A stretch of 64,000 bases of DNA. Origin: Ceratotherium simum simum (taxonomy: Eukaryota; Chordata; Mammalia; Perissodactyla; Rhinocerotidae). The position numbers and the translations under genes are program-made. The first letter of the stretch is position 1, and every line of letters starts with the position of its first letter. The notes below the pieces were generated by a model that worked only from the letters and a program-made list of their open reading frames with translations, was not told the origin of the DNA and made no database searches. Below are positions 25,280 to 45,655 of the stretch, in pieces. The stretch is taken from NCBI RefSeq assembly GCF_000283155.1, contig NW_004454160.1, forward strand, positions 5,484,356-5,548,355, written 5' to 3'.

Positions 25280-27095
25280 ATTTTTAAAAATTAATACACT
25301 TTAGAGCATTTTTGGGTTCACAGCAAAACCGAGTGGAAACAGCAGAGAGTCCCCACGTACTTTCCCCTTCCAACCTCTCCCACCATCAACATCCCCCACC
25401 ACAGTGTTACATTTGTTACATTTGATAAACCTACATTGATACATCATTGACACATCATTATTAACCAAAGTCCACAGTTTACAGGTTTTGAGAAATGTAT
25501 AAGGACATGTATCTAGGATAGTTTCACTGCCCTAAAATTCCCCTGTGCTCCACCTATTCATCTCCCTCCTCCCAAATAACTGGTAACCACTGATTTTTTT
25601 ATTATCTCTATAGTCTTGCCTTTTCTAGAATGTTATATATTTGGAATCATACAGTATGTAAGCTTTTCAGATTGACTTCTTTTACTTAGTAATATGCATT
25701 TAAGTTTTCTTCATGTCTTTTCATGGCTTGATAGCTAATTTTTTTAGCACTGAATAAATTTCATTGTATAGAGGTACCACAGATTATTTATTCATTCACC
25801 TATTGGAGGACATCTTGATTGTTTTAAGAGTTCTTTGTATATTTTGTATAACAGTCCTTTATCATTTGGTGTTTTGTAAAAATTTTGTTCTCATTCTGTG
25901 GCTTGTCTTTTCATTTTCTTAGCATCTTTCATAGAGAAATTGTAACAAAATATAATTCACCAATTATTTATTTCATGGATTATGCCTTTGGTGTTGTACC
26001 TGAAGAGTCATCACCAAACCCAAGGTCATTTAGATTTTCTCCTATGTTATTTTTATATTTTTGTGTTTTACACTTAGGTCTATGATCTATTTTGCAATGA
26101 TTTTTGTGAAAGATGTAAGGTCTGTGTCTAGATGCATTTTTTGCATGTGGATATCCAGTTGATTCAGCATCATTTGTTGAAAAGATTTCTCCATTGAATT
26201 GCCTTTTTTCCTTTGTCAAAGATCAGTTGACTATACTGTGTAGGTCTATTTCTGGCCTTTCTATTCTGTTCTACTGATCTATGTGTTTATTCTTTCACCA
26301 GTACCTCACTGTTTTGGTTTTTGTTGCTTTATAGTAATTCTTAAAGTCAGGTAGTGTCATTCCTCCAACTTTGCTCTCCTTCAATACTGTGTTGGCTATT
26401 CTGAATCTTTTGCCTTTCCGTATAAACTTTGGAATCATTTTGTCAATATGCCACAAAATAACTTGCTGAGATTTTGATTGGGATTGCATTGAATCTATAG
26501 ATCATGTTGGGAAGAACTGACATCTTAACAATATTGAATCTTCCTATCCATGAACATGAAATATATTTGTGTTTACTTAGATCTTCTTTGATTCCTTTCA
26601 TCAGAGTTTTGTGGTTATCCTCATATAGATCTACTCATACATTGTTAAATTTATTCTTTCTTTCTTTTGCACTAATGTCAATGGCATTATGGTTTTAATT
26701 TCAAATTCCAATTGTTCATTGCTGGTATATAGGAAAGGAGTTGACTTTTGTACATTAATCTTGTATTCAGCAACCTTGCTATCATCACTTCTTAGTTCCA
26801 GGACTTGTTTTGTTGTTAGTTCTTTGGGATTTTCTACATAGATAATCATGTCCTCTGTAAATAAAGACAGTTTTAGTTCTTCCTTCTCAATCTGTATACG
26901 CTTTATATCCTTTTTTTGTATTATTGCCTTAGATAGGCAATAATTCCAGTACAATGTTGAATAGAAATGGTGAAAGTGGACATTCTTGCCTTGTTTCTGA
27001 TCTTAATGAGAAAGCACCTAGGTTTTCACCATTACGTATGATATAGGGTTTTTGTAAATGTTCTTTATCAAGTTGAGGAAGTTCTCCTCTATTCC
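25280..27095 (-). mobile_element. L1M 3' part, inverted: 3'UTR and ORF2 C-terminal/RT region
   Basis: Minus-strand L1, 3' end near 25280. ORF2 peptides are visible on that strand, for example PKFIRKGKRFRIANTVLKES with DFKNYYKATKTKTVRYW at 26295-26489, and [18 protein letters not shown] near 26650-26950, which is the RT to C-terminal region of L1 ORF2. Reading frames are broken repeatedly. At about 27095 the element gives way to unrelated sequence and a GATA microsatellite. Confidence 0.85.
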
Positions 27096-27116
27096 AGGGA
27101 AACAGAACCAACAGGA

Positions 27117-27119
27117 GAT

Positions 27120-27166
<47 letters not shown>
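27117..27166. repeat. (GATA)n microsatellite
   Basis: About 11-12 uninterrupted tetranucleotide units (tagatagata...), length about 48 bp. The uninterrupted array suggests it may be length-variable. Confidence 0.95.
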
Positions 27167-27529
27167 TAACTTATAATATATAAAATCATTACAGAGATAC
27201 ACCTGCCATTGCATTTAGACAACTATTTCTAGGAGTCCATGTAAGATACATGGACTTATTACAGAATGTTCAGCACCTCCATTTATGAATATAACACTGT
27301 TCTCCACATGCGAAGCAAATACCATAGTTAGAAGCATCATTTTTACATGTTTCTTTAAACATTTCTCTCCATGCATTACAGAAATAAATAAATAAATATA
27401 ATATAATATATTTTGCCCTAATCTTATTCCTTTCTCATTCTGCCACTCGAACAACACAAATGTTAGATCTTATATGTTGTCTCATAGGTACTTGGGGCTC
27501 TACTCATTTTATAAAATCTCTTTTCTTCT
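27167..27529. other. AT-rich, unassigned between L1 pieces
   Basis: A short 'aaataaataaataaat' run with a following 'ataatataatata' lies near 27383-27410. The rest may be diverged L1 or another insertion that I cannot name. Confidence 0.35.
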
Positions 27530-27692
27530 TTTTGTTGAATTGTAAACGGGATTGAATTCTTGATTCCTCTTTCTGCTGGTTCATTATTAGTGTACAGAAA
27601 TGCAACTGATTTTTGTATGTTGATTTTGTACCCTTCAACTTGACTGTATTTGTTAATTATTTCTAATAGCTTTTGGTAGATTCTTTAGGGGG
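27530..27692 (-). mobile_element. L1 ORF2 fragment, inverted
   Basis: 'tttttgtatgttgattttgtacccttcaacttgactgtatttgttaattatttctaatagcttttggtagattc' is the complement of L1 ORF2 text. It stops at the boundary with a plus-strand L1 3' end. Confidence 0.75.
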
Positions 27693-27856
27693 GAGAGTGA
27701 AAGAGGTAAAGAGGCATATATGTATGGTAATGGATAAAAACTAGACTATTGGTGGTGACAACAATGCAGTCTATACAGAAACTGAAATATAATAATGTAC
27801 ACCTGAAATTTACACAATGTTATAAACTAACATAACCTCAATAAAATGATTTTTAA
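27693..27856 (+). mobile_element. L1 3' end, plus orientation
   Basis: 'ctattggtggtgacaacaatgcagtctatacagaa' is followed by 'ataataatgtacacctgaaatttacacaatgttataaac' and a terminal 'cctcaataaaatgatttttaaaaaa'. This is a classic L1 3' terminus with polyadenylation signal and A-rich tail. It is a short 5'-truncated insertion in opposite orientation to the surrounding L1. Confidence 0.8.
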
Positions 27857-28829
27857 AAAATCTCTTTTCTCTCTGTTCTTCAGACTGGATAACTTCTTCA
27901 GGTTTATTGATTCTTTCCTTGGCTTTGTCCACTCTACTAACGAGCCCATCAAAGGCATTCTTCCTCTCAGTTACAATGTTTTTGATCTCTAGCATTTTCT
28001 TTTTGATTCTCTCTTAGAATTGCTCTCTCTGCTTACATTACCCATCTGTTCTTGCATGTTATCTACTTCTTCCATTAGAACTCTGCGCATATTAATCACC
28101 CTTATTTTCCAGTCTGATAATTCCTACATCCTTGTCATATCTGAGTCTGGTTCTGATGCTTGCTCTGCCTCTTCTAACTGTGTTTTTGTCTTTTAGTATG
28201 CCCTGTGATTTTCTGTTGAAAGCTGGATATGATGTACTGGGAAAGGGAAATGAAGTAAATAGACCTTTAGTGAATTGGTGGGGGGTGCTTTCTGTAATCC
28301 TATGATTAGGTATCTGTCTTTGATGGGCCTGTGCCCCTGGTCTGTGACCTTTACAGGTGCTTCTTAGTCCTACTCACTCCCCACCCTCCTCCTCATCCCC
28401 TGATTCCTTAGGTAAGACAGAAAGGCTAGAGGGGCTGGAATTAGGTCTTTCCCTTCTCCCAGCTCCATTAAGTTGGGTGAAGTAATTTATTTTGAGGGCA
28501 GGCCTTGTTAAGAACAGAGTCCTCTGGGAGTATTTCAAATGGCTATTTTCCTCTCCCTCTGCTGGAAGTACAAGAGGATTTTCTCTAATTTTTCCTCTGA
28601 GAACATGGTAGGGCTCCTGAAGGTAAAACTCACAAAAGTGTGCCCCCTTCAATGCTTGGTGTCCTTGTAGTTTTTAATTTTCAAACACGTCCACACTGAG
28701 CCTCCAGCAATTTGTCAATTAAGGTTCAGGTTTTCCTACCCTGAACTGGTTCCCACAGAGGTTTCTGCTCTGGTAAGTTGTGATTCTCTAAATCCATCTG
28801 TCTGACTCTCCAATTTTGGGGAGGCAACT
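27857..28829 (-). mobile_element. L1M 5' part, inverted: ORF1 coiled coil and 5'UTR
   Basis: On the minus strand a peptide at 27810-27995 includes EIKNIVTERKNAFDGLVSRV and EQREKRFFKN, which match the coiled-coil part of L1 ORF1p. Further right, 'tatgccctgtgattttctgttgaaagctgg' (28197-28227) and the following text match the L1M 5' region. The right border is approximate. Confidence 0.7.
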
Positions 28830-29004: not shown

Positions 29005-29130
29005 TTCCAATAGTAAAAGGATCCATAAGCATAGGCTTTGAAATTGGGCAGACCTGGTTTCAAACTTCTTCCTCTTACTACCTGTATGACATCTGACAAA
29101 CTCCAGAGAGCATCCATTTCTCAGTTTGTT
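29005..29130 (+). repeat. MIR SINE 5' part
   Basis: Sense MIR: 'cataggctttgaaattgggcagacctggtttcaaacttcttcctcttactacctgtatgac'. It is truncated after 'tttctcagtttgtta'. Confidence 0.75.
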
Positions 29131-29439
29131 ACACGGAGTGGGGAAGGGGCAGCAATGGGTGTGTGAGTGTGGGGGACTCTCTCAAAGGCTCCTGTGTCCT
29201 CAGATTTCAGAGCTGGCTGGGTTCCTGCTTCTGGGCAGGGAGGGGCACGGGTCATGGATCCACGAGGGAGGCATGCTGACAGTGGGCAGGTGCATAGGCA
29301 AGGGAGGGGTGAGCGGAGCTTTGCTTCTGGACCAAAGAGATGAAGAAATAAATGTAAACACACACCACAGTTCCAAACCTCTCCTGTGCAGGAGCCACGC
29401 ACCCCTGGAACCAACCCCTGGAAGGATGCACCAACAGAC

Positions 29440-29780
29440 ATCCACCGCATCCCGGTTCCAGCCTGGCCCCGAACCCCCTCTGGTACCTTGCTCCAAACTT
29501 GCTCAGGCTTCCAATGTGGCCGAGGCTCCTGGATGGTGTCGTCCTGGCCTACGGATTGCGGAGGCCAGGGACAGCAGCCACGCAAACGCCGCCTGCCGGA
29601 TCCCGCTGCCACACCCGCCGGCGGGAGCGCCTGCGACCACTGCCGCCAGCTACTAGCTGGAGCATGGGGCGAGGGTGACGCCTGCGGGGAGACCCTGCCC
29701 CCATCCAGGTCCCTACGAGGCCTCTTCTGAAGCAAGGAGGTGACCTCTTCCTTCCCACCCGGGCTGGGAGTCTCTGTCTC
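29440..29780. promoter_or_regulatory. CpG-rich patch around ETNK2 exon 1
   Basis: CpG dinucleotides cluster here (for example the stretch around 29580-29650 with cgccgcctgccgg and cacccgccggcggg) while the flanks are CpG-poor. It coincides with the ETNK2 exon 1 remnant, so I read it as the remains of that gene's CpG-island promoter. Confidence 0.5.
29487..29565 (-). pseudogene. ETNK2: Damaged ETNK2 (ethanolamine kinase 2) exon 1
   Basis: ETNK2 phosphorylates ethanolamine in phosphatidylethanolamine synthesis. The minus strand encodes IQEPRPHWKPEQVWSK, directly followed by a gtacc donor at 29486-29482. This matches the end of ETNK2 exon 1 as I know it (IQELRPHWKPEQVRTK, then a splice). Just upstream, SVGQDD fits SVDPDD, but about seven codons between that and IQE are missing. 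Farther upstream the similarity continues only with a 1-2 bp shift, so the frame is broken. The surrounding 29.44-29.78 kb is CpG-rich, as expected for a promoter/exon 1 island. The strand and position, 3' of the dead renin gene and pointing away from it, match the human ETNK2-REN order. I found no other ETNK2 exon in the window. A living gene with an unusual first exon is possible but less likely. Confidence 0.7.
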
Positions 29781-30489
29781 AAGGCTCGGGCAGGGGCGGA
29801 GGCAGGCTCTTCCAGCGCCCCCCGCTGTTTCCTGGCGTATGGAGGTTCGGTTACTTCCTGGGGTCAGCTTGGACTGGCCCACCTGTGCCCCTGCTACCTG
29901 CCACCACTCCCTGGACCCTGGAAAAGGCTCTGCAGGAGCGGCCCCTGCTCCATCTCAAAGGCCCTTTCTTGCAGGGAGCCTCCCGGGCCACTCTCCCCCC
30001 ACCCCAGCACACTGGATAGAGAGGGCACGTTGGGTGATGGGGGAGGGGGTGCCTGAGAGGCCACTCAACATTCTGGGGCATGGGGATGTTTGGACACACC
30101 TGGGGCCGGGATTTTGAGCAAACTGAGTTTTGGTCATTAAGTAATTCTTAATGCCTCCCCCAATCCTGAGTCTGACTGGGGGCAGGCTGTGGGCATGCAG
30201 CTGTCCCTGAGCCTAGTGCTTTGCTGGGCACTAGGTGTACCTAGGTGGGGCAGGCGCTGTGCTTGCCTTGGAGAAGAGAGATAAAGGCTTGGCTCTGCTA
30301 TAGGGCCAAGGCAGGATGAGGCTGTGTATATGAGTGTGTGTGTGTGTGTGTGTGTGTGTGTTGGGACACACAGGTGGGGAGCAGAGTTGCTGGGGGGAGG
30401 AGGAGACATGGAGAGAGGCCAAGTCAGCTTAGGAGAAAGCCTCTCTGCAGGGAGCATTTGGTGAGAGAATGGAGCTAAAGGGACAAACA
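29781..30489. other. No supported exon; expected place of REN exon 10, not found
   Basis: From neighbouring exon positions, renin exon 10 (C-terminal lobe, 3'UTR) should lie about here. I searched by eye on the minus strand for the DIPPPTGP and FIRKFYTEFDR coding signatures and found neither. Confidence 0.45.
30334..30361. repeat. (GT)n microsatellite
   Basis: About 14 uninterrupted GT units. Confidence 0.95.
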
Positions 30490-30663
30490 GTGATTTGCAC
30501 ACTTGGCTGCACATTGGAGTCACTTGGGCCTTGTGTAAGCCACTGATGTGGCAGTGCCACCCCCAGAGCTTCTGATTTAAGTAAGGGATGCGGCCTGGGC
30601 ATTGGGGATTTTGAAAGCTCCCCAGGTGACTCTAACATGCAGTCATTTGAGAACCACTGGTCT
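30490..30663 (+). mobile_element. MER5A-type hAT-Charlie element
   Basis: 'cttggctgcacattggagtcacttgggcc... acccccagagcttctgatttaag... ccaggtgactctaacatgcagtcatttgagaaccactgg' follows the MER5A consensus, including the terminal ttgagaaccactg. It lies just beyond the exon 9 remnant of the renin pseudogene. Confidence 0.88.
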
Positions 30664-30752
30664 AGCATATCTTCTGTGCATAATGACTTGTCCCATTTGA
30701 GGGCTCCTGGCCACCCTTCCTCCCTGCCGCTGAGGGACCAAATGGAGCCCAG

Positions 30753-30851
30753 CTCGTAATACATCATCCGTTCCAGTGAGCATGTAGCTCTCCCTCGGAG
30801 GTGGGAGGAGATGTCGCAGAGTGTGGGTATCTGCTTACAGTCCTTGACATT
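30753..30851 (-). pseudogene. REN: REN pseudogene exon 9
   Basis: The acceptor is present (ttcccctag before 30851) and the length, 99 bp, is the size expected for renin exon 9. The frame gives PTLCDISSHLRGRA, which fits renin PTLPDISFxLGGRA. A one-base loss follows, after which the next frame reads YMLTGTDDVLR against renin YTLSSTDYVLQ. The exon end is followed by ctggg instead of a gt donor. It carries the C-lobe strand region after the second active site. The frameshift and missing donor are direct evidence of decay. Confidence 0.85.
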
Positions 30852-31139
30852 CTAGGGGAAGTAACACAGGGAGCCCATTTGACATTTGAGTGTAGAGGTC
30901 CCTCAGGCAGATACAGAACCCAGTGCTTGTGGCCTGGCCTGTCATGGACAGGGCTGGCCACAGTGCCCTCTCTCCCTTGGGGACCAAGTCACACCTGTGA
31001 AAAGTATGTGAGAGGTGAGGAAGAGAAGGCCCGAGACAACCTCGTATGGGACCTGATGCTGCCTTGGGTGATTTCAGAGTCTGGACCAGGTGGTGCGCCC
31101 CCACCCCCAGTTTGTGCCTTCAGCTCCTTTGTGGCTTCT

Positions 31140-31278
31140 CTTCATCTGTGCTCAGCTCCTTGGCCCCCACGAACAGCCTCAGGGAGCTGGTGAGACCCGA
31201 GATGAAGGATGCCCTGGTGTCCACCACTACCATGCAGCCCTCCTCGCAGAGCCAGGTGACAGACCTCACAGACACCCC
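31140..31278 (-). pseudogene. REN: REN pseudogene exon 8, with active-site DTG changed to DTR
   Basis: The minus strand encodes [15 protein letters not shown] and then [16 protein letters not shown]. This fits renin exon 8 (GVSVGSSTLLCEEGC, VVVDTGSSFIS), which carries the second catalytic Asp. The Gly of the DTG motif is now Arg (codon agg), which would spoil the active-site loop. About three codons are missing before GAKE, and the frame runs on without a clear gt donor into a tga stop near 31119. At the left edge of the exon the strand reads 'ctctgctgggg', so there is no AG acceptor where one is needed. The edges given are therefore by homology. Confidence 0.88.
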
Positions 31279-31684
31279 AGCAGAGGCCACAGTCAGACAA
31301 ACAGACAGGCAGAGCCTGATGGGGCACCAGCAGGCTGCATAGCTTTTCTGAGTGAGGACAGGTGATCAGAGGCCATGTTGGTGGTCTGCGTGCTGCAGTG
31401 GAAGATGGGCAGGGCCATGTGGGGAAGGGAAGGGAAGGTGCTACCCCCTTGCTCAGCTTAGTCACCCTCCACTGCCTCTCACTAGCCTCCCCCACCCCAT
31501 TCCTCATATCTCCATGTTCACCATCCCTGGACAGAGCAGGCAGAGAGCAAATGTTGGCTGTGCCTTGAGAAGTGGCTGCATTGGGGTACAGGGCAGGATG
31601 GCAGCCCTGCCCCTCCCCTATCCCTACTCCAACCCCAGTGGCAGCAGCATTTTTGGAGAATGGGGATAGTTGAGGATCCCTGAC

Positions 31685-31805
31685 CCTTTCATTTTGATTC
31701 TGCCAGGAGCCAGTCTTGCTGACGCTTACGTGTTGAAAGTTCCCTTGGTAATACTGGGGCTCACTGCCTCCCAGCACAATCTCTCCCCCCAGCAGCTGGG
31801 AATTC
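31685..31805 (-). pseudogene. REN: REN pseudogene exon 7
   Basis: The acceptor tttag lies at 31810-31806 and a gt donor at 31684-31683. The frame reads [16 protein letters not shown] followed by [19 protein letters not shown], clearly renin (mouse-like GGEVVLGGSDPQHYQGNF). Length is 121 bp against the 120 I expect. The extra A lies in the A-run after tggcag, so the expected IxMKG ending becomes NQNER and the frame is shifted. This is the best-preserved exon and the reason a long 267-residue open frame (31142-31945) exists here. Confidence 0.92.
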
Positions 31806-33319
31806 CTAAAGGAAAGATGAGAGACTCTTAGAGACTTATAACCTCTGAGATCCAGTGACCCAGCAACTAGGGATGTTGAGCCCCAGGAGCAGGGTGGGGC
31901 AGAGGAAGGAGAGATGGAGGGCAAGGCTGGGAAGCTGCAGAACATACCTCTTCTCCACCTTTCTTGCCCTTCCCCAAGCCCATCCAGAGGTGTCTCCAGG
32001 ATAGTCCAGCCACACCCAATATAGCATCCCCAGTGAGGTCACAGGAAAGGAGCAGGCAGAGGACAGTGAGCAGAATAAAGCAAACAAGATGCAAACTGGC
32101 CCCACCCGCCCTCACATGGGTTTGGGTTGCTCCGGTTGAGCCGCAGGCGCAGGGGAGGCCACTCTGGGGAGCTGTTGGGTGGGGGCGGGCAGGGGGCAGG
32201 AGGGGAGCAGGAAGGGGGGCGGAGCCCCGGCCTGCTGAGGTGAGTTTTGGGTGGGTGGCTTGTGTGACTCTGGGTCAGGTGGTCAGGGAGTACCGGCAGG
32301 TCAGGGCCAAGTGGGGCTCCTCTCCTTGCTTGGAATTTCTGCAAAGAGCCAGTGAAAAGGCGGCTTTTGTTCCGGGCGAGCCTCACCAGCCTGTTGTTTG
32401 GCAGGGCAGGTCTGATTCACTCTCATTTGCCCTTCAGGCAACGGAGTCACTCAGAGGTGAAGTCACTTCCTGAAATCCTGCAGGCTGAGTGCGGTGCAGG
32501 AGGGACTGGAGCCAGGGCTCCTGGTGCCCAGTCCGAAGTGGATGCCCCTTGCCTTCCTCTCCTCCACGGTGCACGATGCTTTCCACGGCTTAGGGGCCAC
32601 CGTAGGCCTGGTTTCCAGGGTGTGCATGTGTATGTGATGTGGCTTTCTAGCATTCATAACAGGAGGCATGTGTACATGCACGCGTGTGTGTGCACAGTGT
32701 GCAGGTGTGCACATGTTACTTTGTGCAAGTGTAATTTCACATTTGCAAATTCAGTACATTTGTGCATGAGTTAGCACAAGTCCGTTGTGCCTGCCCCTCC
32801 CCTGATACCTCAGGATCCCACAGGGTGTTCCCTCTTCTTCCCTGGGGTAAAGGAAGAGGCACACCCTCTCCTCAATGAGGCCCTCCTTCTTCGGATTTGC
32901 TGTATCCTCATCCCTTCCATGGCCTCCAGGCTCCCGTGCCCTCAATGATCTTCTTTTTTCCCGTGGTTTCAATCTCTCTCTTTCCGTTGGCTTCTTCCTC
33001 CACCTGCACACATGTTTGGGCATCCCCTAGCATTTAAAAACACCCACTCTTCCTTACCCTACTTCTCTCTGACTTCTCCCCACCTCTCATCCCCACATTC
33101 CCTTCCCTGTTGAATCTCTCAAGACAGCCTACATTCACAACCTCTACTTCCTAACACCAACATCCACCTCTTAGCTGATTACCACCTGTCCTCCCCCCTC
33201 CTCCTGTAAAAGAGCTCTTCCCAAGACCACACCTGACTGCAGAGTTACCAACTGGTGGCCTTTTCTCAGTATCTCCCTTCCCCTCCAAACCAGAGACTCC
33301 TCTCCATTGTACCTCTGAG
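31806..33319. other. REN pseudogene intronic DNA; exons 5 and 6 not found
   Basis: Renin exon 5 (about 197 bp, with the FDGVxGMGF signature) should lie between exons 4 and 7. I found no match on the minus strand here or up to 34.0 kb, so it was probably deleted or replaced. A weak inverted MIR-like patch lies at about 32430-32535, and a tg/ca-rich patch (gcacgcgtgtgtgtgcac) near 32680. Confidence 0.5.
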
Positions 33320-33720
33320 ATTTCTCTGGACTCCCACCTTCCTCTCCATCCTCACTGCCACTGGCAGTATTACTCTGATGACAGCTTGTCTGCAGCAGCT
33401 TGGAGCAGATCATGTTCCTGCTCAAAAGCTGACCACAGCTTCCCCAGGCTTGTTGAACTGCACATAAGCGCAGCCTAGGACTGAAAAGCATCCACGGTTG
33501 TCAACACTTCCTCCCATGTGCTCCCATAACGTGATTCCCGTAACGCTCCTCAAAGTGTAATATCTCGTGCCTTTCCTGGTAGACCGTGAGCTCTGTGAGG
33601 GCAGGGACTCTGCCTTGCACACTGCGTTCATGGCTGTATCCCCAGAGCCTGGCATGGTGCTTGGCACCTGGGTGTCCAGTATCTACTGAATTGATGAGTA
33701 AGCAAATGAATAAATGACTG
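33320..33720 (+). repeat. L2 LINE 3' part
   Basis: L2 landmarks in order: 'gcagatcatgttcctgctcaaaagctgaccacagcttcccc', 'ccataacgtgattcccg', 'gtagaccgtgagctctgtgagggcaggga', 'tgtatccccagagcctggcatggtgcttggcacc', and an end reading 'aaatgaataaatgactgaatga'. It lies in the intron between exons 4 and 7 of the renin pseudogene. Confidence 0.85.
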
Positions 33721-34020
33721 AATGAAGTGAGAGGAGCCATAGGCCTCACAGGGAGGGTCCCCAGGTACTTCCCCTAGATACAAGTAGGATGCAAAATCCT
33801 TCATAACCACCAGCTTTGAGCTAGGAGCTCAGGTCTGCTCCATTACAGGCCCTGCTTCATTGCAGCTCCAGCTGGAAGCAGCAGAGCAGGGTGTGCCTCA
33901 ACTCCCCAGGCTCCAGAGTGGGCTGGAGAGCACCTTCTCCCAACTACGGTCCCTGGAGGGTCAGGAGAGCCCTGGAACAGGAAGGACAGGTGGTCAGATG
34001 ACCTGTGGTGACCCCTTTAC
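33721..34020. other. REN pseudogene intron, nothing else recognised
   Basis: No repeat or exon recognised. Confidence 0.4.
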
Positions 34021-34143
34021 CATCACCAGGTCCTGGCTCAGGAAGCCTTTGAGCCTCTCTGAACTCCAGTGGATGGTGGGTAGTGAATTCTGTCCCATTT
34101 TCCAGTGGCTGTGAGTCTCTGGCAGAGGGACACAGGCTCAGGT
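34021..34143 (-). pseudogene. REN: REN pseudogene exon 4
   Basis: The acceptor is intact (ctcttgggcag before 34143) and a gtaaag donor follows 34021. The right part of the exon encodes LENGTEF. After a shift of frame it encodes TIHWSSERLKGFLSQDLVM, matching renin (ENGSDF, TIHYGSGRVKGFLSQDSVT). Length is 123 bp where I expect about 119, which agrees with inserted bases and a frameshift between TEF and TIH. The flap and substrate-binding residues of the N-lobe lie in this exon. Confidence 0.88.
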
Positions 34144-34722
34144 CTGCCCAAGAGAGGCCCAGGCAGGGGACTCAGAGGCAGGCCTGTGTGGGTGTGGCTG
34201 GTGTGGTTGAGAACACAGGTGCAGGAATGGAGTGGTCCTGGGGTCGGCGCCTGGAAAATGGCTTTCATCAATCAAGAACTGTGTTTCTTGAGCCCCTATT
34301 ACGCGCTTATACTTCTGAGAATTTTGTCTCAAATGATGCATTTTAAAGTAATTGCTAACTCTGGGATGGAAAGATTCTGGGCACAGAGTACTCAATAAGA
34401 GGTTGTTGACTAAGGATGGGCATGAAGGAGCACAAGTGCCTGGGTGGGACTGAGAATCAGTCCTGTCTCAGTCTCAGGAGAAGGGAGACATGGTCTTCTG
34501 ATTGGGCCAGGTGACCCTGGGAACTGGCTGTTTATCTCGGTGGGCACATCTAGAAAATGAGAAACATCTTCCTTTCTCCTCTCAGGGCCAGTGGGAGCAG
34601 AGGCAGCAAGGATGCAGCTCAAATAGCAGCAGGAGGGGTTTAGCGGGGTGTGAGGCAGGACTGCCCAAGCACAGCAGGCAGGGCAGGGGGCTGGGGAGAG
34701 GCCCAGAGGCCCTGGGTCTCAC

Positions 34723-35212
34723 CACAAGCGGCATGGAGAGAGCCGCACTTGCTGGGGGCACCAGAGATGGGCTGACCCTGTGTCAAAGATGACTCTGAAG
34801 GTCTGGGTAGGGTGCTGTCTTAGTCCATTCAGGCTACTGTAACAAGGTACCATAAACTGGATGGCTTATCAACAACAGAAATTTATTTCTCACAGTTCTG
34901 GAGGCGGGAAGTCCAAGATCGGGGTGCCAGCATGGTTGGTTCTGGGGAGAGCCCTCTTCCGGGTAGCAGATCACCACCTTGTCCTTGTATCCTCACATGG
35001 TGGAAAGAGGGTGAGAAAGCTCTCTGGGGTCTCTTTATAAGGGCACTAATTCCATTCAGAAGGGCTCCACCTTTATGGCCCAGTCACTTCCCAAAGGCCC
35101 CACTTCCTACTATTATCACATTAGGGGCTAGAGTTTACCATGTGGATTTTTGGGGAACACAAACATTCAGTCTATAACAGGTGCCAGTGCCGATCTCGCC
35201 ATAGTACTGGAT
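34723..35212 (-). pseudogene. REN: REN pseudogene exon 3, split by an LTR insertion
   Basis: The exon begins at 35212 after a tag acceptor and encodes IQYYGEIGTGT before an LTR interrupts it at 35180. It resumes at 34815 with PTQTFRVIFDTGSAHLW, includes the first catalytic motif FDTG, and ends at 34723 before a gtgaga donor. The exonic pieces share a 5-bp target duplication, ggtgc. Without the LTR and one copy of it the exon is 121 bp, against about 124 expected. After the Trp the alignment to renin continues only with a base change in frame. The insertion alone would abolish the mRNA reading frame. Confidence 0.92.
34816..35179 (-). mobile_element. MaLR LTR (MST/MLT1-type) inserted in renin exon 3
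   Basis: The plus strand reads tgtcttagtccattcaggct, 'accataaactggatggcttatcaacaacagaaatttatttctcacagttctggagg', 'ctcacatggtgg', 'tttataagggcactaattccattc', 'ccaaaggccccacttcctac', and ends ttcagtctataaca. This is the inverted MaLR LTR of about 364 bp, bounded by TG and CA. Direct repeats ggtgc at 34811-34815 and 35180-35184 are the 5-bp duplication typical for ERVL/MaLR. Divergence from the family looks high (perhaps 15-20 percent by eye), which suggests an old insertion. Confidence 0.93.
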
Positions 35213-35814
35213 CTATAGGGATGAAAGAGGCTTCCTGAGGGGTTGGGGGACCCTTGGGCTTCGAGGTCTTGCCTGGCTCCACCCTTGGTGCTCAGGTGAG
35301 ATTAGGCAGGTTGTACAGGCTCTGTGGGTTTCCACTTTCCAGCAGGAACTGGACGGGAGGCTTAGCCCTGTCCCATGACTCCCCAGGAGGTGGGAGACTC
35401 AGTGGGACAAGAGGGCAGAATAGAAACATTGAACCTGAGGCAGGAACGTGTCCAGACCCTTGAGGATCCACTGGTGTAGTAAGAGGTGAAGCTGCCCTGA
35501 GCCTGGTCACCGAAACCCAGCCCCGAGGTCACACGACCCTCCCACACACCAGTGACACCTAGGATTGGGGACAAGAGCCTGGATTCCTGGGTTCTAAATC
35601 TGACCCTGCCTCTGACTAGTCCCTGAGATTCATCCTGCCCTCTGTGCCTCAGGCTTTCTGGCTGTAATGTGGGAATTTTCTAGGGTGCTCACGTGCTCCT
35701 CAGCTCCTCAGTCAAAGGCAGTGGGGAAAGAGTGGGCCTTGCAGGAAAAGCAAGCCTTAGGTCCAAGAGAGAAAGGAGACAGGGAGGAAGTGAGGGGCTG
35801 AGCTGGGCACTCAC
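35213..35814. other. REN pseudogene intron 2, nothing else recognised
   Basis: No repeat recognised with confidence. Confidence 0.4.
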
Positions 35815-35964
35815 GTCCAGGTCGGTGCTGAGGACCGCAGAGTGGGTGCCGTAGCCAAAGGGGGTCTCTTGGTGAACTGGCTCCCCTTGGGGCTGAGACT
35901 GGCCACACTCGTGCCTTGCTCCCTCGGGCTTTCCTGGACTAAGCGCATTTTCTTAAAGGAGATC
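35815..35964 (-). pseudogene. REN: REN pseudogene exon 2
   Basis: The acceptor ccag precedes 35964 and a gtgagt donor follows 35815. The first frame gives ISFKKMRLVQESPREQG and then SQFTKRPPL, matching the renin propeptide (PLKKMPSVREILEERG, FTKRPSL). The end fits only in another frame, FGYGTHSAVLSTDLD against LxNxTSPVVLTNYLN. Length is 150 bp against 151, so one base has been lost. This exon encodes the inhibitory prosegment with its basic residues. Confidence 0.9.
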
Positions 35965-36209
35965 CTGGCCCAGCGTGAAGGATGAAAAAATAGAAGAGGC
36001 CTGTGCTGTCTCCTAATGGCAGAGTCCCTGAAGCCACCGCCTGCTCCTGTCGCCACCACCCCTAACCTTAGCCCAGGCACCTAGGATCATTCTGTTCCCT
36101 GAGGCCTCTGAAGGAGAATTGACAGGTCTCCGTGAGTCACCTGTACTGTCATTAAATAAGACTCAACTAAGTTCCTCTTGTAGTCTATGATTTCCATCAC
36201 TGCAAGGCC

Positions 36210-36420
36210 ATTCACTCATTCGTTCATTCATTTATTCATTCATTCATTCCATAATCACATGTTGAACACTTCCTCTGTGTTTGTACTGTGGTAGATGCTG
36301 GAGATAAAGATAAAGAAGATCATCGCTGCCTTCAGGGAACGCCAGCCAGCCTGGAGATAGACGCGGAAACATGCAGTGACATCTCTGAGGACATGAAGGC
36401 TGGGAGTGCGCCCCTCAATG
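36210..36420 (-). repeat. L2 LINE 3' end, inverted
   Basis: It starts with an attcattcattc run, then 'gttgaacacttcctctgtgtttgtactgtggtagatgctggagataaagataaag... gctgccttcagggaa'. This is an inverted L2 3' end within intron 1 of the pseudogene. Confidence 0.8.
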
Positions 36421-36724
36421 TTGGACATGGGGAGGCAATTCCATGTGGGGCCTATAGGTGGCAGCAGATGCCCATCACAGCCTGCCGGGGCTCCTGAATA
36501 CCTGGGGGCAGGTACCAGCCAGGCGCGAGGGAATGAAGTGGCCCGATGGAACTGGGTTGGGCGAGGAGGGAGACCAGCATCTCCAGGGTGCCTGTGACCT
36601 TGTCCTTAGAAAGATGTGTTTGGACCTAAGTCCCAGTTCCTCAGCTTCTTGTCCAGATGCCTTCCCGTCACTTTTGGGAGGCAGAATTGAAGAGACCTGG
36701 GCAACTCACAGTGGACTGGGCTGT
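36421..36724. other. REN pseudogene intron 1, unassigned
   Basis: GC-rich text without a recognisable repeat or exon. Confidence 0.4.
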
Positions 36725-36880
36725 GGAGTGTGAGTGCTAAATATTATACACCCCCCTTCCTAAGCCCTCGTAACAACTCGGCAAACTAGCTGTCCTTGTC
36801 CCCATTTTATAGACGTGGAAACCAAGGCTCACAGAAGTGATGGAGCAGGGATTCAAAGCAGCGGAGTCTGACTCTATTTG
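36725..36880 (-). repeat. MIR SINE, inverted
   Basis: 'taacaactcggcaaactagctgtccttgtccccattttatagacgtggaaaccaaggctcacagaag... cagggattcaaagcagcggagtctgactc' fits antisense MIR. Confidence 0.8.
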
Positions 36881-37171
36881 TAAAAGGCTCCCTGGGCTCT
36901 GCTGACAGGGAGCTGTTGGTGATGCCTGGAGGAAGACGTCCCCAGCAGTTGTGGGGGGAGGGGGCACCCCAGTTCAGTTTAACTTTGCAATGGGCTTTCC
37001 CCATCCATATGGAGTTTCCATCTTTCTTCTCAGCTGCTAGTTCTCCTTTGCTTCTGCTATCCTTTCCTTCCACACCCTGTGCATTCTACTTACTGTTGCA
37101 CCATCGTGTCCAAGAACACGAAACCTACTCTCATGCCTATCCGTGTAATACGATAATGGAAAAGACTCATC

Positions 37172-37389
37172 GGGGCCGGCCCCGTGGCTTAGCGGTTAAG
37201 TGCGCGAGCTCCGCTGCTGGGGGCCCGGGTTCGGATCCTGGGCGCGCACCAACGCACTGCTTCTCCAGCCATGCTGAGGCCGCGTCCCACATACAGCAAC
37301 TAGAAGGATGTGCAACTATGACACACAGCTATCTACTGGGGCTTTGGGGGAAAAAATAAATAAATAAAATTTAAAAAAAAAAAGAAAAA
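37172..37389 (+). mobile_element. ERE SINE, type 1, young copy
   Basis: Head ggggccggccccgtggctta, then the tRNA-like B box gggttcggatcc, 'gctgaggccgcgtcccacat', 'caactagaaggatgtgcaactatgac', 'ctactggggctttggggg' and an A-rich tail with aaataaataaat. A perfect 13-bp duplication gaaaagactcatc lies at 37159-37171 and 37390-37402. It sits in intron 1 of the renin pseudogene and is probably the youngest insertion in the window. Confidence 0.95.
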
Positions 37390-37404
37390 GAAAAGACTCA
37401 TCAT

Positions 37405-37545
37405 ATTTATATCGTGGTTTACTGTCCACAAGGTGTTTTCACAATTGTGACATTATTTGCTTCTCAGCCTTCCCATGAGGTGGGTAATTTTATTATTCCC
37501 ATTTTACAGATGGAGAATTGGAGGGTCACAGAAAGTTTTACCTCA
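37405..37545 (-). repeat. MIR SINE fragment, inverted
   Basis: 'cccatgaggtgggtaattttattattcccattttacagatggagaattggagggtcacagaaag' matches antisense MIR. Confidence 0.85.
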
Positions 37546-37599
37546 GAGAAGGTGCATTTCCCACTACTTATTCCAAACAGCCTTCTGCTCTGGAACTTT

Positions 37600-37730
37600 G
37601 CTTTTGCTAATCCTCTTTCAGAAAATATCTTTCTTCTCCCCTTCTTTTTCCCCAAGGCTTTAATCCTTCAAAGCCCAGCATGTGTCCCCCCTCCAGGAAG
37701 CTTGCCCCACGGCTTGATGATCTCACCGGC
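37600..37730 (+). repeat. L2 LINE fragment
   Basis: 'taatccttcaaagcccagcatgtgtcccccctccaggaagcttgccccac' fits the L2 3' region (ctcagctcaaatgtcacctcctccaggaagccttccc). Confidence 0.55.
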
Positions 37731-37849
37731 CTTGTCTCTCCTTGGTCTCCTGCTCCTTCTCCTGCCCTCTGTGCCATGCTCCCCCCCGCCCCTCAGCACC
37801 CAGCACTGCAGGGCCTCATGCTATGGAGGCAAAGGGGAGGGCATGGTGG

Positions 37850-38035
37850 TTGTGGGGACATGCCTGAATCCAGGCCCCCTGCCTTACTACCTGTGTGATT
37901 CTGAGCAACTTACCTAACCTCTCTGGGCCTCTTCTGAGCCCTCTATAAAAATGGGCTTAATGGTAGTACCTATCTCAGAGGGTCTCTGTGTGAATTAAAT
38001 GGGCTGACCGCTGCTCAATAAATGTGAACTGTGTA
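37850..38035 (+). repeat. MIR SINE
   Basis: Sense MIR: 'ctacctgtgtgattctgagcaacttacctaacctctctgggcctc... aaaatgggcttaatggtagtacctatctcagagg... ctcaataaatgtgaac'. Confidence 0.9.
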
Positions 38036-38039
38036 TGTA

Positions 38040-38150
38040 TAAGGCAATGTAAGCACCTTGAGAATGGGTGTCACGCGCTCAGATCTCCCAGAGTGCCTTG
38101 CATGATGCTCTGCACACAGCGGTTGATAAAATTCCCGTAACTGTGTTTCG
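38040..38150 (+). repeat. L2 LINE 3' tail fragment
   Basis: 'gtaagcaccttgagaatgggtgtc... cagagtgccttgcatgatgctctgcacacagcggttgataaa' fits the L2 3' end. Confidence 0.5.
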
Positions 38151-38354
38151 AAAGCCTGACTCCCTTTCCACCCTGGCCCAGTTCCCGGGCCTGGCTCTTT
38201 TCTTTTGGAGAACAAGGGAGGATGGTTTTACCTGCCTCTGCCTTTATCCTGGGGCGGGGCTGCCCTAGGCCTGCGTTCACCCTTGCCCTCGCCCTGTCTT
38301 CCCAACCCAGCAGTGTCTCTCTAGGAACCTTGGGGCAGGGAAAAAGGCTTTGGA

Positions 38355-38545
38355 AACGAGTCAGGTGTTGCTTCAGCCCCTTGCTTATGGCCTCGAGTTT
38401 GCTGCTTAGCCTCCCTGATCCTCAATGTTCTCAGTTGTGCAATGGGACTGTCAGGTTGTTGGGGGGATGAGTGGAGGTGAGTCAGGAGAAAAGATCCTGT
38501 GAAATCCTAGGCATTTCATAGACTTAGCAACTATTCCTGTTATAA
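38355..38545 (+). repeat. MIR SINE
   Basis: Diverged sense MIR: 'gcctccctgatcctcaatgttctcagttgtgcaatgggactgtcagg' with a '3' half ending 'acttagcaactattcctgtta'. Confidence 0.65.
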
Positions 38546-38819
38546 AACCTGCCCTCTCGCTGAGGCCTTTTGCATCCCATCTGGACTGCTCAGACTGAGA
38601 ACCCCATTCTTCTCGAGGCCGTCTCCCGACCCTGCCTCTGCAGCCCTGAGGAATTGCCTGTTCCCGCAGGGCTGGGCACGGACTGGATATTAAGTCTTTC
38701 TCCTCCTCCTCTGGGCTGCCTTAAGCCTTTCTTTTGCCTTTTTGCTGCCTTTCAGATCTTAACACTTACGATAATCCGCCCTGTCGTCCTAGTCACAGCC
38801 GAGTTCCAACAGTCCGCCC

Positions 38820-39010
38820 TGCACCAGGCTGAGGGCTCCACTCACGTTATCTCAGGAAATCACAGAGCAACCCCATGTGGTGGGAGCTGGGGTTATTCTT
38901 GTCTTAAAAATGAGTAAACTGAGGCTTGAGAGCTTACTTGACAAGAGATAACTAGTCCGTGGTTCTGAGCTGGTTAGTTCTGCCAGTGGAGCAGCATTTG
39001 AACCAAGAAA
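38820..39010 (-). repeat. MIR SINE, inverted
   Basis: 'ctcacgttatctcaggaaatcacagagcaaccccatgtggtgg... ttattcttgtcttaaaaatgagtaaactgaggcttgagagcttacttgac... gcagcatttgaaccaag' fits antisense MIR. Confidence 0.8.
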
Positions 39011-39184
39011 ATCCTCCTCTAACGGCCTCTGCTGCTTCCCCAGTGGAGCCCCTGGTGCCCACACCAGTCTTGATAGTTCAGCTCTGAGCCTCCTGAGGGT
39101 AAGGCCATGGCTTAGTGGTCTTTGGGTTCCCCACGGTGCTGAGTGTGGGGTGCCTAGTGGGAGCTCTGGGCAGGGATCGGAAGG

Positions 39185-39315
39185 TATGGCTTCTGAGCCT
39201 ATGTTCTACGTATCTATTATCTGTGTGACTTTGGGCAAGTTGCCTGACCTCTCTGAATGGGACCATCCTTGCCCAGCTGGTTGTGAGGACCGGATGACAT
39301 AACATATCTGAAAGT
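39185..39315 (+). repeat. MIR SINE fragment
   Basis: 'attatctgtgtgactttgggcaagttgcctgacctctctgaatggg' then 'gttgtgaggaccggatgac'. Internal core deleted. It lies just 3' of the exon 1 remnant of the renin pseudogene. Confidence 0.8.
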
Positions 39316-39374
39316 CGGGCTGTTGGGTAGATGGGAAACCCTGTGGCCCTGCCTCCCCCCTCTGCCTGGGTCAC

Positions 39375-39454
39375 TGTTGGAAGGCACCGGGCTCTGCGCG
39401 GAGCCTGAAGGCGCAGGAGACCCAGAGCGCCAGTAGGAGTCCCCAGAGAGGCAT
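39375..39454 (-). pseudogene. REN: REN pseudogene exon 1 (signal peptide)
   Basis: The coding part reads MPLWGLLLALWVSCAF then RLRAEPGAFQ, a hydrophobic signal peptide matching renin ([26 protein letters not shown] in mouse-type order), followed by a gtgacc donor after 39375. The ATG used here is the second renin methionine. The upstream ATG-GAT-GG start is replaced by ccggacc in the corresponding place (about 39470). Eighty bases remain, and with the six lost start codons the exon would match the usual size. This is the 5'-most recognisable exon. Confidence 0.88.
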
Positions 39455-39545
39455 CCTGCTCTGAAAGGTCCGGGCCTCCCCCGACCTGGGGCTCTCTCCG
39501 GGATCCACGGCAGCCTGTGGCCCAGAGCCCTTCTCCTTTTGTACA
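39455..39545 (-). promoter_or_regulatory. REN: Decayed renin promoter and 5'UTR
   Basis: On the minus strand, ggagtgtacaaaaggagaag and then 'ggatcccggagagagccccag' match what I recall of the human renin proximal promoter and 5'UTR (ggagtgtataaaaggggaag, ggatctcagagagagcccc). The TATA box has become TACAAAA. The spacing of TATA, UTR and exon is preserved, so this copy arose with its promoter, by DNA-level duplication or vertical descent rather than by retroposition. Confidence 0.7.
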
Positions 39546-39778
39546 CTCCACAGGGCCCAGGGTGCGGGTCTTCTATGCGCTGGTCTGTTACCTCGGGGCA
39601 GATGGCAGGCAGTCAGAAATGAGTCCTAACCACGGTTCCTGGCTAGGTGGGTGAAGAGGGGCTGGAGGAAGGAGGGCTGAGGGAGAGGAGTGCTGTACCC
39701 AGTGATGCCAGCAGCCCCCTGTCTCAGCCTGGCCCCGGACGCCCCCGAGGGGGCAGAGGCTGATGAGGCACAGCACTG

Positions 39779-39812
39779 CTCAGGGACAAGGTCAGGGACA
39801 AGGTCAGGGATG
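39779..39812. repeat. 12-bp short tandem repeat
   Basis: The unit cagggacaaggt occurs twice in full and a third time in part and mutated (cagggatgag). Confidence 0.85.
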
Positions 39813-39874
39813 AGACAGACACAGAACCTAGGGCAAGAGCCAGCCCAGACACCACCCCTAGGCCCTTGAAGCTC

Positions 39875-39985
39875 CATTCTCTGTATAAACCTTGGCTGTG
39901 CCTCTGACTGGCTTTTCCCAGGCTACATCTCAGTTTTCCCATCTGGAAGATGGGTGGATCCTCCTAGCTTGTTCCCTGATGGAGC
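39875..39985 (+). repeat. MIR fragment
   Basis: 'catctcagttttcccatctggaagatggg' fits the MIR core. The flanks are weak. Confidence 0.55.
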
Positions 39986-40424
39986 CAGCCCCAGAGGCCT
40001 CAGTGCTGCCTCCCTTCAAGCCTCTGTTAGCAGCAACTGTTTATGGGAAAGTGCACTACAGCCTGGCAGGAGAAGAAGCACCTAGTGGAAGCTTCTAGAA
40101 GCAGGGAGCTGGGGGAGGGGAGACTGTGTCTATCCTCAGTTTACCTAGTGATGGTGGGAAGGAAGGGCAGCCCTCAGGGCTTGGGGAAGCTTCTGCAGAT
40201 AGGAGGCAGGCCAGCTGGTCTTCTAACTCATCTTCTTCTTTCTGCTTGGCCCTAACTCTCTTTTGAGTCCCATCTCTCTGCCTCCTTCCCTTTTCCCGGT
40301 AGCTTTTCAAACAATCTGGGGCAGCACCCCAAGCACACATCTGCCCCTTAAATCTCAGGATAGGTGCTATTCATATGCATCCATTAATATTTAATATTTA
40401 ATATGCACTCATTTAATATGCCCT

Positions 40425-40665
40425 CACCCGGCTTCACCTTGCTCACTCTTCAGGGACCGCTTTAAATATCACCACCTCCTCCATGAAGCAAGTCCCGACT
40501 CAGCCTGGAATTCGCTGCTTTGTGGGGCTCCCACAGTGCAGACGAGCCCTTGTATGAGAGCACTGACCCCAGTCGTCCTCATATCAGTTATTTATCTGTG
40601 TGTGCATCTGCCTCTCGCCCAGCACAGAGTAGGGATTAATACTTGTTAAACGAGTGAACCAGTGA
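40425..40665 (+). repeat. L2 LINE 3' part
   Basis: 'cttcacc...tcagggaccgctttaaatatcaccacctcctccatgaagcaagtcccgac' leading to 'cccagcacagagtagggattaatacttgtt' fits the L2 3' end. Confidence 0.75.
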
Positions 40666-40679
40666 CCTGGGATGGGCAG

Positions 40680-40850
40680 CGCCAAGAGCCCTGGGTTAGT
40701 TGTCAGGGGCTTGGGATCCAGTCTTGGCTTTACCGTGAGTTTGCTGTGTGACATTGGACCTGTCCCTTCCCCTCTCTGGGCCTCAGTTTCCAAATAAGTA
40801 CAGTGAGGAAGATGGCTGGAAGGTCTCTAAGGTGCCTTCCATCCCAGGCC
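40680..40850 (+). repeat. MIR SINE
   Basis: Sense MIR: 'cttgggatccagtcttggctttaccgtgagtttgctgtgtgacattgg... cccctctctgggcctcagtttccaaataagtacagtgagg'. Confidence 0.88.
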
Positions 40851-40894
40851 CTCCAGCATTCTAAGTTCTGTGCCTCCATGATGGTGCTGTCCAC

Positions 40895-41700
40895 AAGGAG
40901 AGGAAATAGAGCCCCAAAGAGAACAGCACATGCAAAGGGCCTGGGGAGAGAGGAAGCATGGTGAGAACAAGGGCCTGAGAGTGAGCTAGGATGGCTGAAA
41001 CAGACTGATGAGAGGGGGAGGGATGAGAGAAGAGACTGAGGATGCAGGGGATGATGGGAATAGACACTAACTGAGTGCCTACTAGGTGCCAGGCATCATT
41101 AGAAGTGCTCAACACATCCAGGTCTCACAACAACCCTGGGAGGTAGGTACCAATATTACCGCATTTTACAAATGAGGAGACTGAGATACAGGGGATTCAG
41201 AAGGTAACTTGCCTTGGGTCAGACTGACAGGAAGTGGTAGAATCAGGCTGTAAATTTAGGCAATATGACCCAGAACTCATCACATAGCTGACTTGAGTGT
41301 TGAAGGTTCTTGAACTCCATGTTAAGAAGCTACTGATGGGTTATGCAGGGTGTAATTAGACGTGTTTTGCAAAGATCTGACTGCAGTGTGGACTAGCAAG
41401 GGATTGGAGTGGGTCTAGAATAGCATAGCGTGTACCCAGTAGGAAGCCATGGCATTTGAACTTGAGAGTTACAATGGAAGCTTGGACTTGGGTAGGCATG
41501 GTGGAGATGGAGAAGATTGGATCAAACTGAGAGAAATTTAGGAAATAAAATTCACAGGACTTGGTGATGAATTAGGTATAGGAAGTGAGGGAGAAGGAGG
41601 TTTCTGGATGGTTGGTGATACACAGGATGCAGTGGAAGAGAACCAGCATTCCAGGAGGGGAGGAGGGATAGGGTGATCATGAGTTTGAGGACCTGTTGAG
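40895..41700 (-). repeat. L2 LINE, inverted, containing an inverted MIR (41056-41280)
   Basis: Inverted L2 text: 'gaacagcacatgcaaagggcctggggag' at 40922 (complement of the L2 'agggcctttgcac...tgttc') and 'agatctgactgcagtgtggactagcaagggattggag...gtagg... caggacttggtgatgaattagg' at 41370-41575. The MIR between them reads 'gtgcctactaggtgccaggcatcat... acaacaaccctgggaggtaggtacc... ttttacaaatgaggagactgaga'. Order suggests the MIR inserted into the L2, but the L2 right part is very diverged. Confidence 0.65.
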
Positions 41701-41721
41701 TGTGGGGCTGCTAGTGAGACC

Positions 41722-41811
41722 TCCTCCCTCCTTCCTTCCCTCCTTCCTTCCCTCCTTCCTTCCTCCTTCCTTCCTTCCCTCCTTCCTTCCTTCCTTCCTT
41801 CCTTCCTTCCT
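41722..41811. repeat. (TTCC)n/(CTCC) microsatellite
   Basis: About 90 bp of pure pyrimidine tetranucleotides (ccttccttccctcc...), ending in eight or so perfect ttcc units. Low-complexity 'KEGRKEGR' open frames on the minus strand come from it. Confidence 0.95.
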
Positions 41812-42934
41812 AATAAGAGGGAGATGAACACATTTAAAGGCATAGCAAGGACTCAGCTGAGAGGAAGGGATAATCAATACAGTAAGATTCCTGAGATAAG
41901 CTCAAGCCACAGCCCTTGCACTGGAGCAGAGGAAAGGAAGGCAGGATGTGTGCTGCATTTGTAGTTTACTTGCTTGGTATTGGAAGCCAAGGGACTTCCT
42001 GTCTGATGGCTGTTATGTTCTCTGACAAGTAGGAAGCAAGGACCTCTGCTGGGAGCTGAGGCTGGGAAGGGGTTTGGAGGCATGAGAAAAATAGAGAAGG
42101 TGTAAAATAATTGTAGAAAGTGGAAAGGAGTTGGCCAGGGAAACTGAGAGAATTTCTGGGAGGAATTAAGAACATATTTAATGGCTGGAGATCATGGCTT
42201 TGTAGGAAGCCAGTCTGCCCTGTTCTCTGACTCCCTCTACCACCACCAGAGTGCTTGGCTGCTTGGGTACAAATGTGGAGAAAGTACATGGCTGGCTTCA
42301 TCCAGGGCTGGGGTTTTGCCAAATGTGGTGATTAAGGATGAGGGACAAAGGAATTTTGCAAAAATTTTGCAAAAAAAAATGTTATTGGATGATAGACTGT
42401 GGAATATAAGTAGGAGAGAACTCAAAACAGGACAGGAAGAATGAACTGCAAGAAAGCAGAGAAGATCATGGGCAGGTGAGAGGCAAGAGCAGTTTGGTGG
42501 GAATAACTGAGGCATAGAGCTGGAAGATGAGGAGCTGGTCAAGAGTGAGATGTTTGAGAGTCTTTTTGGAGGTGGAACAGTAACAAATGATGACTAAGTC
42601 CAGAGAAGGACGTGGGAGTGGATGGCTGAAGTAGAGTGGGGGTGAAGGCCATTGGAGAAGGCCACTCAAGGAACAGAGGGGCCAAGGTGCTGGCCAGGTC
42701 AACATCTGTGTAGAGGGTGGTCCATCCAGGATGATTGTAGGGAGCTTGGGGTGGAAGAAGTCTGCAAGTCAGGATCCAAAGTCTTTGATTAATGATGTGA
42801 TGGGACCTGGAAGTCCAGTCACAACAGTAGTGAGTGGGTGGAGAGGGCCCACAGTTAAAAAGCACGGGCTGGAAGGGAGGAGGCTCTTCTCCCAACGTCA
42901 CGTCAGCCCTGGGCTATGAGGGGAATGGACCAGT
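41812..42934. other. Purine-rich, diverged repeat-like DNA, unassigned
   Basis: Text such as 'gggagtggatggctgaagtagagtggggg' recalls old interspersed repeats, but I cannot name the family. No gene. Confidence 0.35.
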
Positions 42935-43050
42935 AGCCCTGTAACACAGGAGGAAACCAAGACCCAAGAGGTTAAGTAATGTGTCCTAATTTGCAGCTGG
43001 TAAGTGACAGAATGGGGACTTGAATCTCCCCTGCACCGTATCCTGTGTTA
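42935..43050 (-). repeat. MIR SINE fragment, inverted
   Basis: 'aggaggaaaccaagacccaagaggttaagtaatgtgtcc... cagctggtaagtgacagaatggggacttgaatc'. Confidence 0.8.
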
Positions 43051-43354
43051 CACGTGGGTCCAGCTGCCAAGGTGGTGGGGTGTCCCAGAATCTCACTTCT
43101 CCCCACAGTGAGGCCCTCTGCTGGTGGAGAGCAGGTCACGAATCTCAGGAGAGTGATGCTGTCTCCATTCCCACCAGCAGGCCTGACAAGATTGTGACCT
43201 GTGCTGGCCGCTATTGGTGATTGACCACCCACCTTTCCTCTCCCTCCCCTCTCCCCAAACTCTAGAGCAGAGGGAGCAAGGAGTAAGGAGAGAAGAGGTT
43301 GGGAGAGGGAGGCTGTGGGAAGATCAGCAGCCTGGGGGCCGTGTCAGAATATGA

Positions 43355-43500
43355 GTACACCAGCCACCATTTATTGAGCACCTCCAATGTGCTGTGAAGT
43401 TCGAGTGCTAATGTATTTTATTCTCCCAGCTGCCCTGTGAAGTGGATACTCTCATCCCCATGGTTCAGATGAGGAAGCTGAGGCTTCAGAGAGCTTAGAG
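43355..43500 (-). repeat. MIR SINE, inverted
   Basis: 'ccaccatttattgagcacctccaatgtgctg... tgtgaagtggatactctcatccccatggttcagatgaggaagctgaggc'. Confidence 0.85.
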
Positions 43501-45444: not shown

Positions 45445-45655
45445 AAGACGATGGAGTTTGGAGTTAGAATGTGGGAGTCCAACTCTTGGCTCTATAACTT
45501 TTTGGGTGTGTGACCTTGGGCACACTGCTCAACCTCTCTGAGCCTCAGTTTCCTCTTCTACACAGTGGGGATAATGTGCCCCCCTCATGCAGTTGTTGTG
45601 AGGATGAAATGGGGTAGCGCTGTGCTTAGCATGCTGTAGGCACTCAAAAATTGCC
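45445..45655 (+). repeat. MIR SINE, near full length
   Basis: Sense MIR: 'gtgtgtgaccttgggcacactgctcaacctctctgagcctcagtttcctcttctacacagtggggataatg... ttgttgtgaggatgaaatgg... gtaggcactcaaaaattg'. Confidence 0.92.

Follow-up and report, generated by a model that had tools for sequence, protein, structure and literature searches.

Duplicated pseudogenes are a familiar kind of mammalian sequence, in which exons, introns and promoter have been copied as DNA, the parent gene is intact, and the copy carries many lesions. A renin gene duplicated at the DNA level is described in the mouse, where Ren1d and Ren2 are separated by 21 kb, have 96% of their coding sequence in common and both encode protein (PMC5787795, accessible part). 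Large blocks copied between two genomic places have been catalogued in the white rhinoceros, with only pairs more than 90% identical being kept (PMC13296254, accessible part). The sequence considered here is a 64,000 nt stretch of the white rhinoceros genome (Ceratotherium simum simum, contig NW_004454160.1, here C5, 5484356–5548355), hereafter the window, which carries on its minus strand, at positions 30753–39545, a duplicated pseudogene of renin, non-processed and with several exons, together with its promoter. This copy is no different in kind from other duplicated mammalian pseudogenes, but compared with typical examples it is old and lies inside a multi-gene block. In contrast to the mouse pair, as described in the same part of PMC5787795, it is on a different contig from its parent, is about 78% identical to it, and is dead; the rhinoceros and mouse duplications are presumably independent. 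Since the catalogue of PMC13296254 retains only pairs above 90% identity, according to its accessible part, the renin block would fall outside it. An open-access-weighted literature search, with most subscription papers outside its reach, found no report of a rhinoceros renin pseudogene, which does not show that the duplication is unpublished, and none is mentioned in the accessible part of PMC13389413.

Comparison of human renin with the window by tblastn gave eight pieces on the minus strand that follow the order of the gene, at 39457, 35966, 35209, 34811, 34077, 31804, 31278 and 30848. The query is identical to PDB 2x0b over residues 24–406. E values were 9e-12 and 3e-8 for the best pieces and 0.13–0.52 for three others that, weak alone, are sure only because of their order and the DNA alignment. 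Aligned as nucleotides with the exons of this genome's own REN, the region 30753–39545 shows exons 1, 2, 3 (split), 4, 6, 7 and 8, in order and with introns, and 152 of the 814 aligned coding bases differ from REN on contig C15 of this assembly. Window alignments of exons 5 and 9 scored below the best of 20 shuffles, and both exons are gone. The seven exons have 13 splice sites, of which 10 keep GT/AG (a hand count on the alignments); exon 7 has lost both its acceptor and its donor, and exon 8 its donor. The original prediction, made from the letters of the window, had described seven exons in conserved order and strand with mostly real splice signals, behind a recognisable but mutated promoter, and had taken them as a non-processed pseudogene; tblastn, exon alignment and intron alignment to C15 bear this out. 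A processed copy is rejected because the introns align to the C15 parent, and introns would be absent from such a copy. Introns and flanking DNA are kept, an open-frame parent exists elsewhere, and the reading frame is disabled, as in a duplicated pseudogene.

The prediction had named a better match to another aspartic protease as evidence that would count against it. Of 317 database matches to the translated pseudogene, the 120 listed carry the name renin or belong to a few unnamed mammalian entries. When 13 aspartic-protease loci of the genome were compared, REN (L012, L013) scored best, two loci that we take to be cathepsin E (L009/L010) scored weakly, and L001–L008 gave no score. Another aspartic protease as the source is rejected on these two results.

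The same assembly carries on C15 an open, nine-exon REN gene of 404 residues, which equals the white-rhinoceros renin entry (P0059) except for an optional three-residue KNS insert. On C15 the final coding exon of KISS1 is followed by REN, ETNK2 and SOX13, the latter together with 5′ noncoding sequence, and GOLT1A is situated just outside the duplicated block; KISS1-REN-ETNK2/SOX13 is the usual mammalian order. Renin is not lost in this rhinoceros, because this intact gene sits on C15. The prediction had left a choice between a DNA-level copy and a gene dead in place, and between duplication and loss of renin. The presence of introns and promoter would suit a gene that died in place as well as a copy, but the open REN between KISS1 and ETNK2 means that an intact gene of the kind is left. 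Unitary loss is rejected on this ground and has practically no probability; the copy and the duplication stand, the latter also by the inverted chain to C15 described below. A genome-wide renin protein search, of the tBLASTn type that had been proposed with the prediction, gave 67 matches (nine at the C15 REN, four at the pseudogene and 54 elsewhere); an intact second REN, the outcome that had been named as support for an old duplicate, is the gene on C15. The other 54 matches are attributed to other aspartic proteases; the best has 71% identity over 42 residues, on C102, where six further pieces show 39–56%. The locus adds an old renin duplication and settles that renin persists in this rhinoceros.

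The disabling lesions, of which the prediction had named at least seven, are many and include indels, a lost ATG, lost splice sites, a repeat in exon 3 and the missing exons 5 and 9. The mutated promoter (39477–39795, minus strand, as are all renin features here) aligns to the intact copy at 250 of 309 bases, and its TATA-like box, near 39536–39543, is mutated from TATAAAAG in the intact copy to TACAAAAG in the pseudogene. Pseudo-exon 1 (39374–39476, limits approximate) has lost its first ATG and gained a 1-base insertion, with a second in-frame Met remaining, and pseudo-exon 2 (35815–35964) has a 1-base deletion. Exon 3 is divided into a 5′ part (35180–35212) and a 3′ part (34723–34815) by a 364 bp interspersed repeat (34816–35179), which has GCACC on both sides and relatives elsewhere that are 80–81% identical; the 3′ part shows three 1-base deletions and retains the first active-site motif, DTGSA. 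Pseudo-exon 4 (34021–34118) combines a 28-base deletion with a 7-base insertion. A deletion scar at 33766–33772 marks the absence of 1.8 kb of the intact locus (C15:33595186–33596962), including exon 5. Pseudo-exon 6 (31685–31805) carries a 1-base insertion, pseudo-exon 7 (31141–31276) a 9-base deletion together with loss of its acceptor and donor and a change of the second active-site motif from DTGAS to DTRAS (G to R), and pseudo-exon 8 (30753–30851) small indels and a lost donor. A young short interspersed nuclear element, presumably of the ERE family, lies in intron 1 (37170–37389); its copies in other places reach 99% identity.

The copied block is far larger than the renin exons to which the prediction was confined, and also holds dead pieces of ETNK2 and KISS1. 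When the window and its 10 kb flanks were compared by blastn with 220 kb of C15, a single inverted collinear chain was found, joining window 17551–49501 to C15:33643409 down to 33573764 and covering SOX13 5′ noncoding DNA, ETNK2, REN and part of KISS1; it runs through introns and intergenic DNA as well. Repeating the blastn with the C15 sequence reversed gave no matches. Identity in the chain is 61–78% per piece with gaps counted, or 0.70–0.81 of aligned bases, over 21,903 aligned window bases. Weak pieces outside the block (below 17551 in the window, and at 61295) were excluded from all counts, since they fall in stretches that have matches in several further places.

All homologous parts of the block lie on the minus strand. 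The left part (17551–25285) corresponds to C15:33637620–33643409, the DNA immediately 5′ of SOX13's first coding exon, and has been cut by later repeats. It is followed by a decayed ETNK2 exon 1 with the remnant of a CpG island (29487–29747, limits approximate; CpG observed/expected ratio 0.46 vs 0.87 on C15), and, beyond the renin promoter, by duplicated REN-KISS1 intergenic DNA (39796–48203). The decayed last KISS1 coding exon (48204–48487) has several indels and a frame broken around the decapeptide region, and its CpG ratio is 0.11, compared with 0.92 on C15. The right end (48488–49501) is within a KISS1 intron, where homology to the compared C15 stretch ends. In the intact locus, a part of about 34 kb (C15:33603835–33637620) has no counterpart in the window chain except one 170 bp piece at 27692; this piece is 87% identical to C15:33492979 vs 75% at the collinear place and was left out of the counts, but if kept would be the sole match in the missing 34 kb. 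Human SOX13 had no match in the window, and human ETNK2 matched there by exon 1 only.

At about 78% identity of aligned bases, the block fits the usual definition of a segmental duplication, as applied in PMC13296254 (longer than 1 kb, above 90% identity), in length but not in identity. It is of an ordinary known kind, an old, multi-gene, decayed segmental duplication that holds a dead renin gene. Misassembly is very unlikely as the cause of the second locus, given a divergence of about 22%. Homology, collinearity, the lesions and the intact REN elsewhere are direct observations, and together they are explained best, with high confidence, by an old DNA-level duplication of several genes, after which the dispensable copy decayed and the original stayed intact. 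A segment of about 70 kb, with SOX13 5′ noncoding DNA and coding exons, ETNK2, REN and part of KISS1, would have been copied as DNA to another genomic place, probably before the horse-rhinoceros split. The copy would have been dispensable because the original remained intact. About 34 kb, presumably once present and holding the coding exons of SOX13 and all ETNK2 exons beyond exon 1, would then have been lost, smaller deletions would have taken REN exons 5 and 9, and repeats would have been inserted, one of them in exon 3. Point lesions and CpG decay affected the remainder; we infer this order of events, as well as the date and the absence of function.

The date was approached by divergence, diagnostic residues and trees. 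The Kimura two-parameter (K80) distance between the copies is 0.268 at noncoding sites (20,802 sites; 0.240 without CpG sites) and 0.253 at exonic sites (1,142 sites). At 1.5e-9 to 2.5e-9 substitutions per site and year, the divergence corresponds to 89 to 54 million years (Ma). By arithmetic, the rhinoceros demography rate of 2.2e-8 per 25-year generation (PMC13296254, accessible part) leads to about 150 Ma, which we think is too old. As evidence apart from the clock, residues were compared with 52 of the 120 listed renin proteins, hand-picked by group, the perissodactyls being three Equus and one rhinoceros; a site was taken as perissodactyl-derived if its residue was common to these four entries and present in less than a quarter of the others. 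At seven such sites the pseudogene is ancestral at five, derived at one and different at one. In a 38-row tree, the horse and rhinoceros renins cluster without the pseudogene, with starred support, and the approximately unbiased (AU) test rejects a grouping of pseudogene and rhinoceros (p 0.007). Because of the ancestral residues at five of seven sites and this rejection, the duplication is probably older than the horse-rhinoceros split. A segmental duplication confined to rhinoceroses, after that split, would draw on the uncertainty of the clock rates and on the rhinoceros residue found in the pseudogene at two of nine rhinoceros-derived sites, but the K80 distance of 0.268, together with the same AU result and ancestral residues, makes it improbable.

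Several points weigh against an early date or against a single extra copy. Residues 2 and 3, both among the seven diagnostic sites, fall in the degraded 5′ end, and without them the pseudogene is ancestral at four of five and derived at one, with no other residue. At the nine rhinoceros-derived sites it is ancestral at only four, rhinoceros-like at two and different at three, and at six horse-derived sites it is ancestral at four and horse-like at two. Grouping with the horses was borderline in the AU test (p 0.088), which is no firm rejection; the clock dates are widely spread, and a single perissodactyl genome stands behind the date. A third copy of the block is conceivable, as only the best-scored genome-wide candidates were compared. 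Among the matches scored, no long non-repeat partner other than the C15 locus was found for 29100–40100 (39 of 12,300 candidates scored) or for 40100–49600 (40 of 560). A third copy of 17500–28500 could still exist because its scored matches (39 of 44,025 candidates) are all high-copy repeats.

A still earlier origin of the early duplication, with the copying of the REN-KISS1 block placed far back in the ancestry of Laurasiatheria or Boreoeutheria, is possible but doubtful. Identity of the pseudogene to renins is 68% for perissodactyls, 66–70% for cetartiodactyls, 66–69% for bats and 65–69% for carnivores. Placement of the pseudogene with all Perissodactyla (p 0.44), Cetartiodactyla (0.14) or Laurasiatheria (0.41), or outside the other Boreoeutheria (0.46), was not rejected by the AU test, and the best tree puts it with bats, weakly (38/76). 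If such a duplication took place, relics would be expected at orthologous places in horse and tapir and perhaps also in carnivores, bats, whales and even primates, and they would have been overlooked since duplication catalogues stop at 90% identity.

Between the copies, the ratio of nonsynonymous to synonymous rates (Ka/Ks) amounts to 0.53 (bootstrap 0.38–0.75), and mismatch rates at codon positions 1, 2 and 3 are 0.167, 0.170 and 0.223, a pattern that would be expected if one copy was under constraint and the other was not. The copy may have had a short functional life after duplication. That it served as a second renin gene for a substantial time before dying is unlikely: REN was copied with its promoter and a Ka/Ks of 0.53 allows some constrained time, but the exonic K80 (0.253) is near the noncoding value (0.268), and the mere 80–81% identity of the relatives of the exon 3 repeat suggests an early insertion. 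Some stretches of the block are more similar than the rest (e.g., 0.88 at 31500–31999), as a present regulatory or noncoding-RNA role might predict. Exon 6, however, presumably under constraint in the intact copy, falls in that stretch, and an Rfam scan of the window gave no family reaching cut-off, so such a role is very improbable. The decayed block most likely has no product and is inert today. It has no evident functional consequence, is of mild interest for its age and its place outside catalogues with a 90% limit, and could serve as a neutral yardstick beside the living renin locus.

DNA abutting the right breakpoint (49500–59209) had no scored match elsewhere in the genome (39 of 1,496 candidates scored). 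Genes of the insertion site were not found in the 20 of 383 stop-free flank frames (at least 50 codons) scanned against Pfam, and the tested frames of 49502–59209 held no coding domain. The sole Pfam match in the 20 frames was to a spider-toxin family (E 0.019, below the curated cut-off) and was taken as chance. Human synteny did not place contig C5: PF11851, which we take to represent TFEB and its relatives, gave matches on C2, C3, C13 and C51 and none on C5.

High-copy interspersed repeats occupy three further parts of the window: 1–4631 (relatives mostly about 70–85% identical across the genome), 25821–27095 (75–81% elsewhere), within the stretch that replaces the missing 34 kb, and 22735–23266 (89–92% elsewhere), a clean insertion across which C15 is continuous at 33638261.

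Perissodactyls keep one or two pgf/PAG copies, according to the accessible part of PMC13389413. At least eight aspartic-protease copies, in both orientations and pepsinogen/PAG-like by domain match only, are present at C69:5390000–5646000, where L001–L005, L007 and L008 are located. Two more aspartic-protease loci lie a few Mb from the window on its own contig, at C5:9317440–9329269 and C5:10117762–10125946; in the latter, one exon match contains stop codons.

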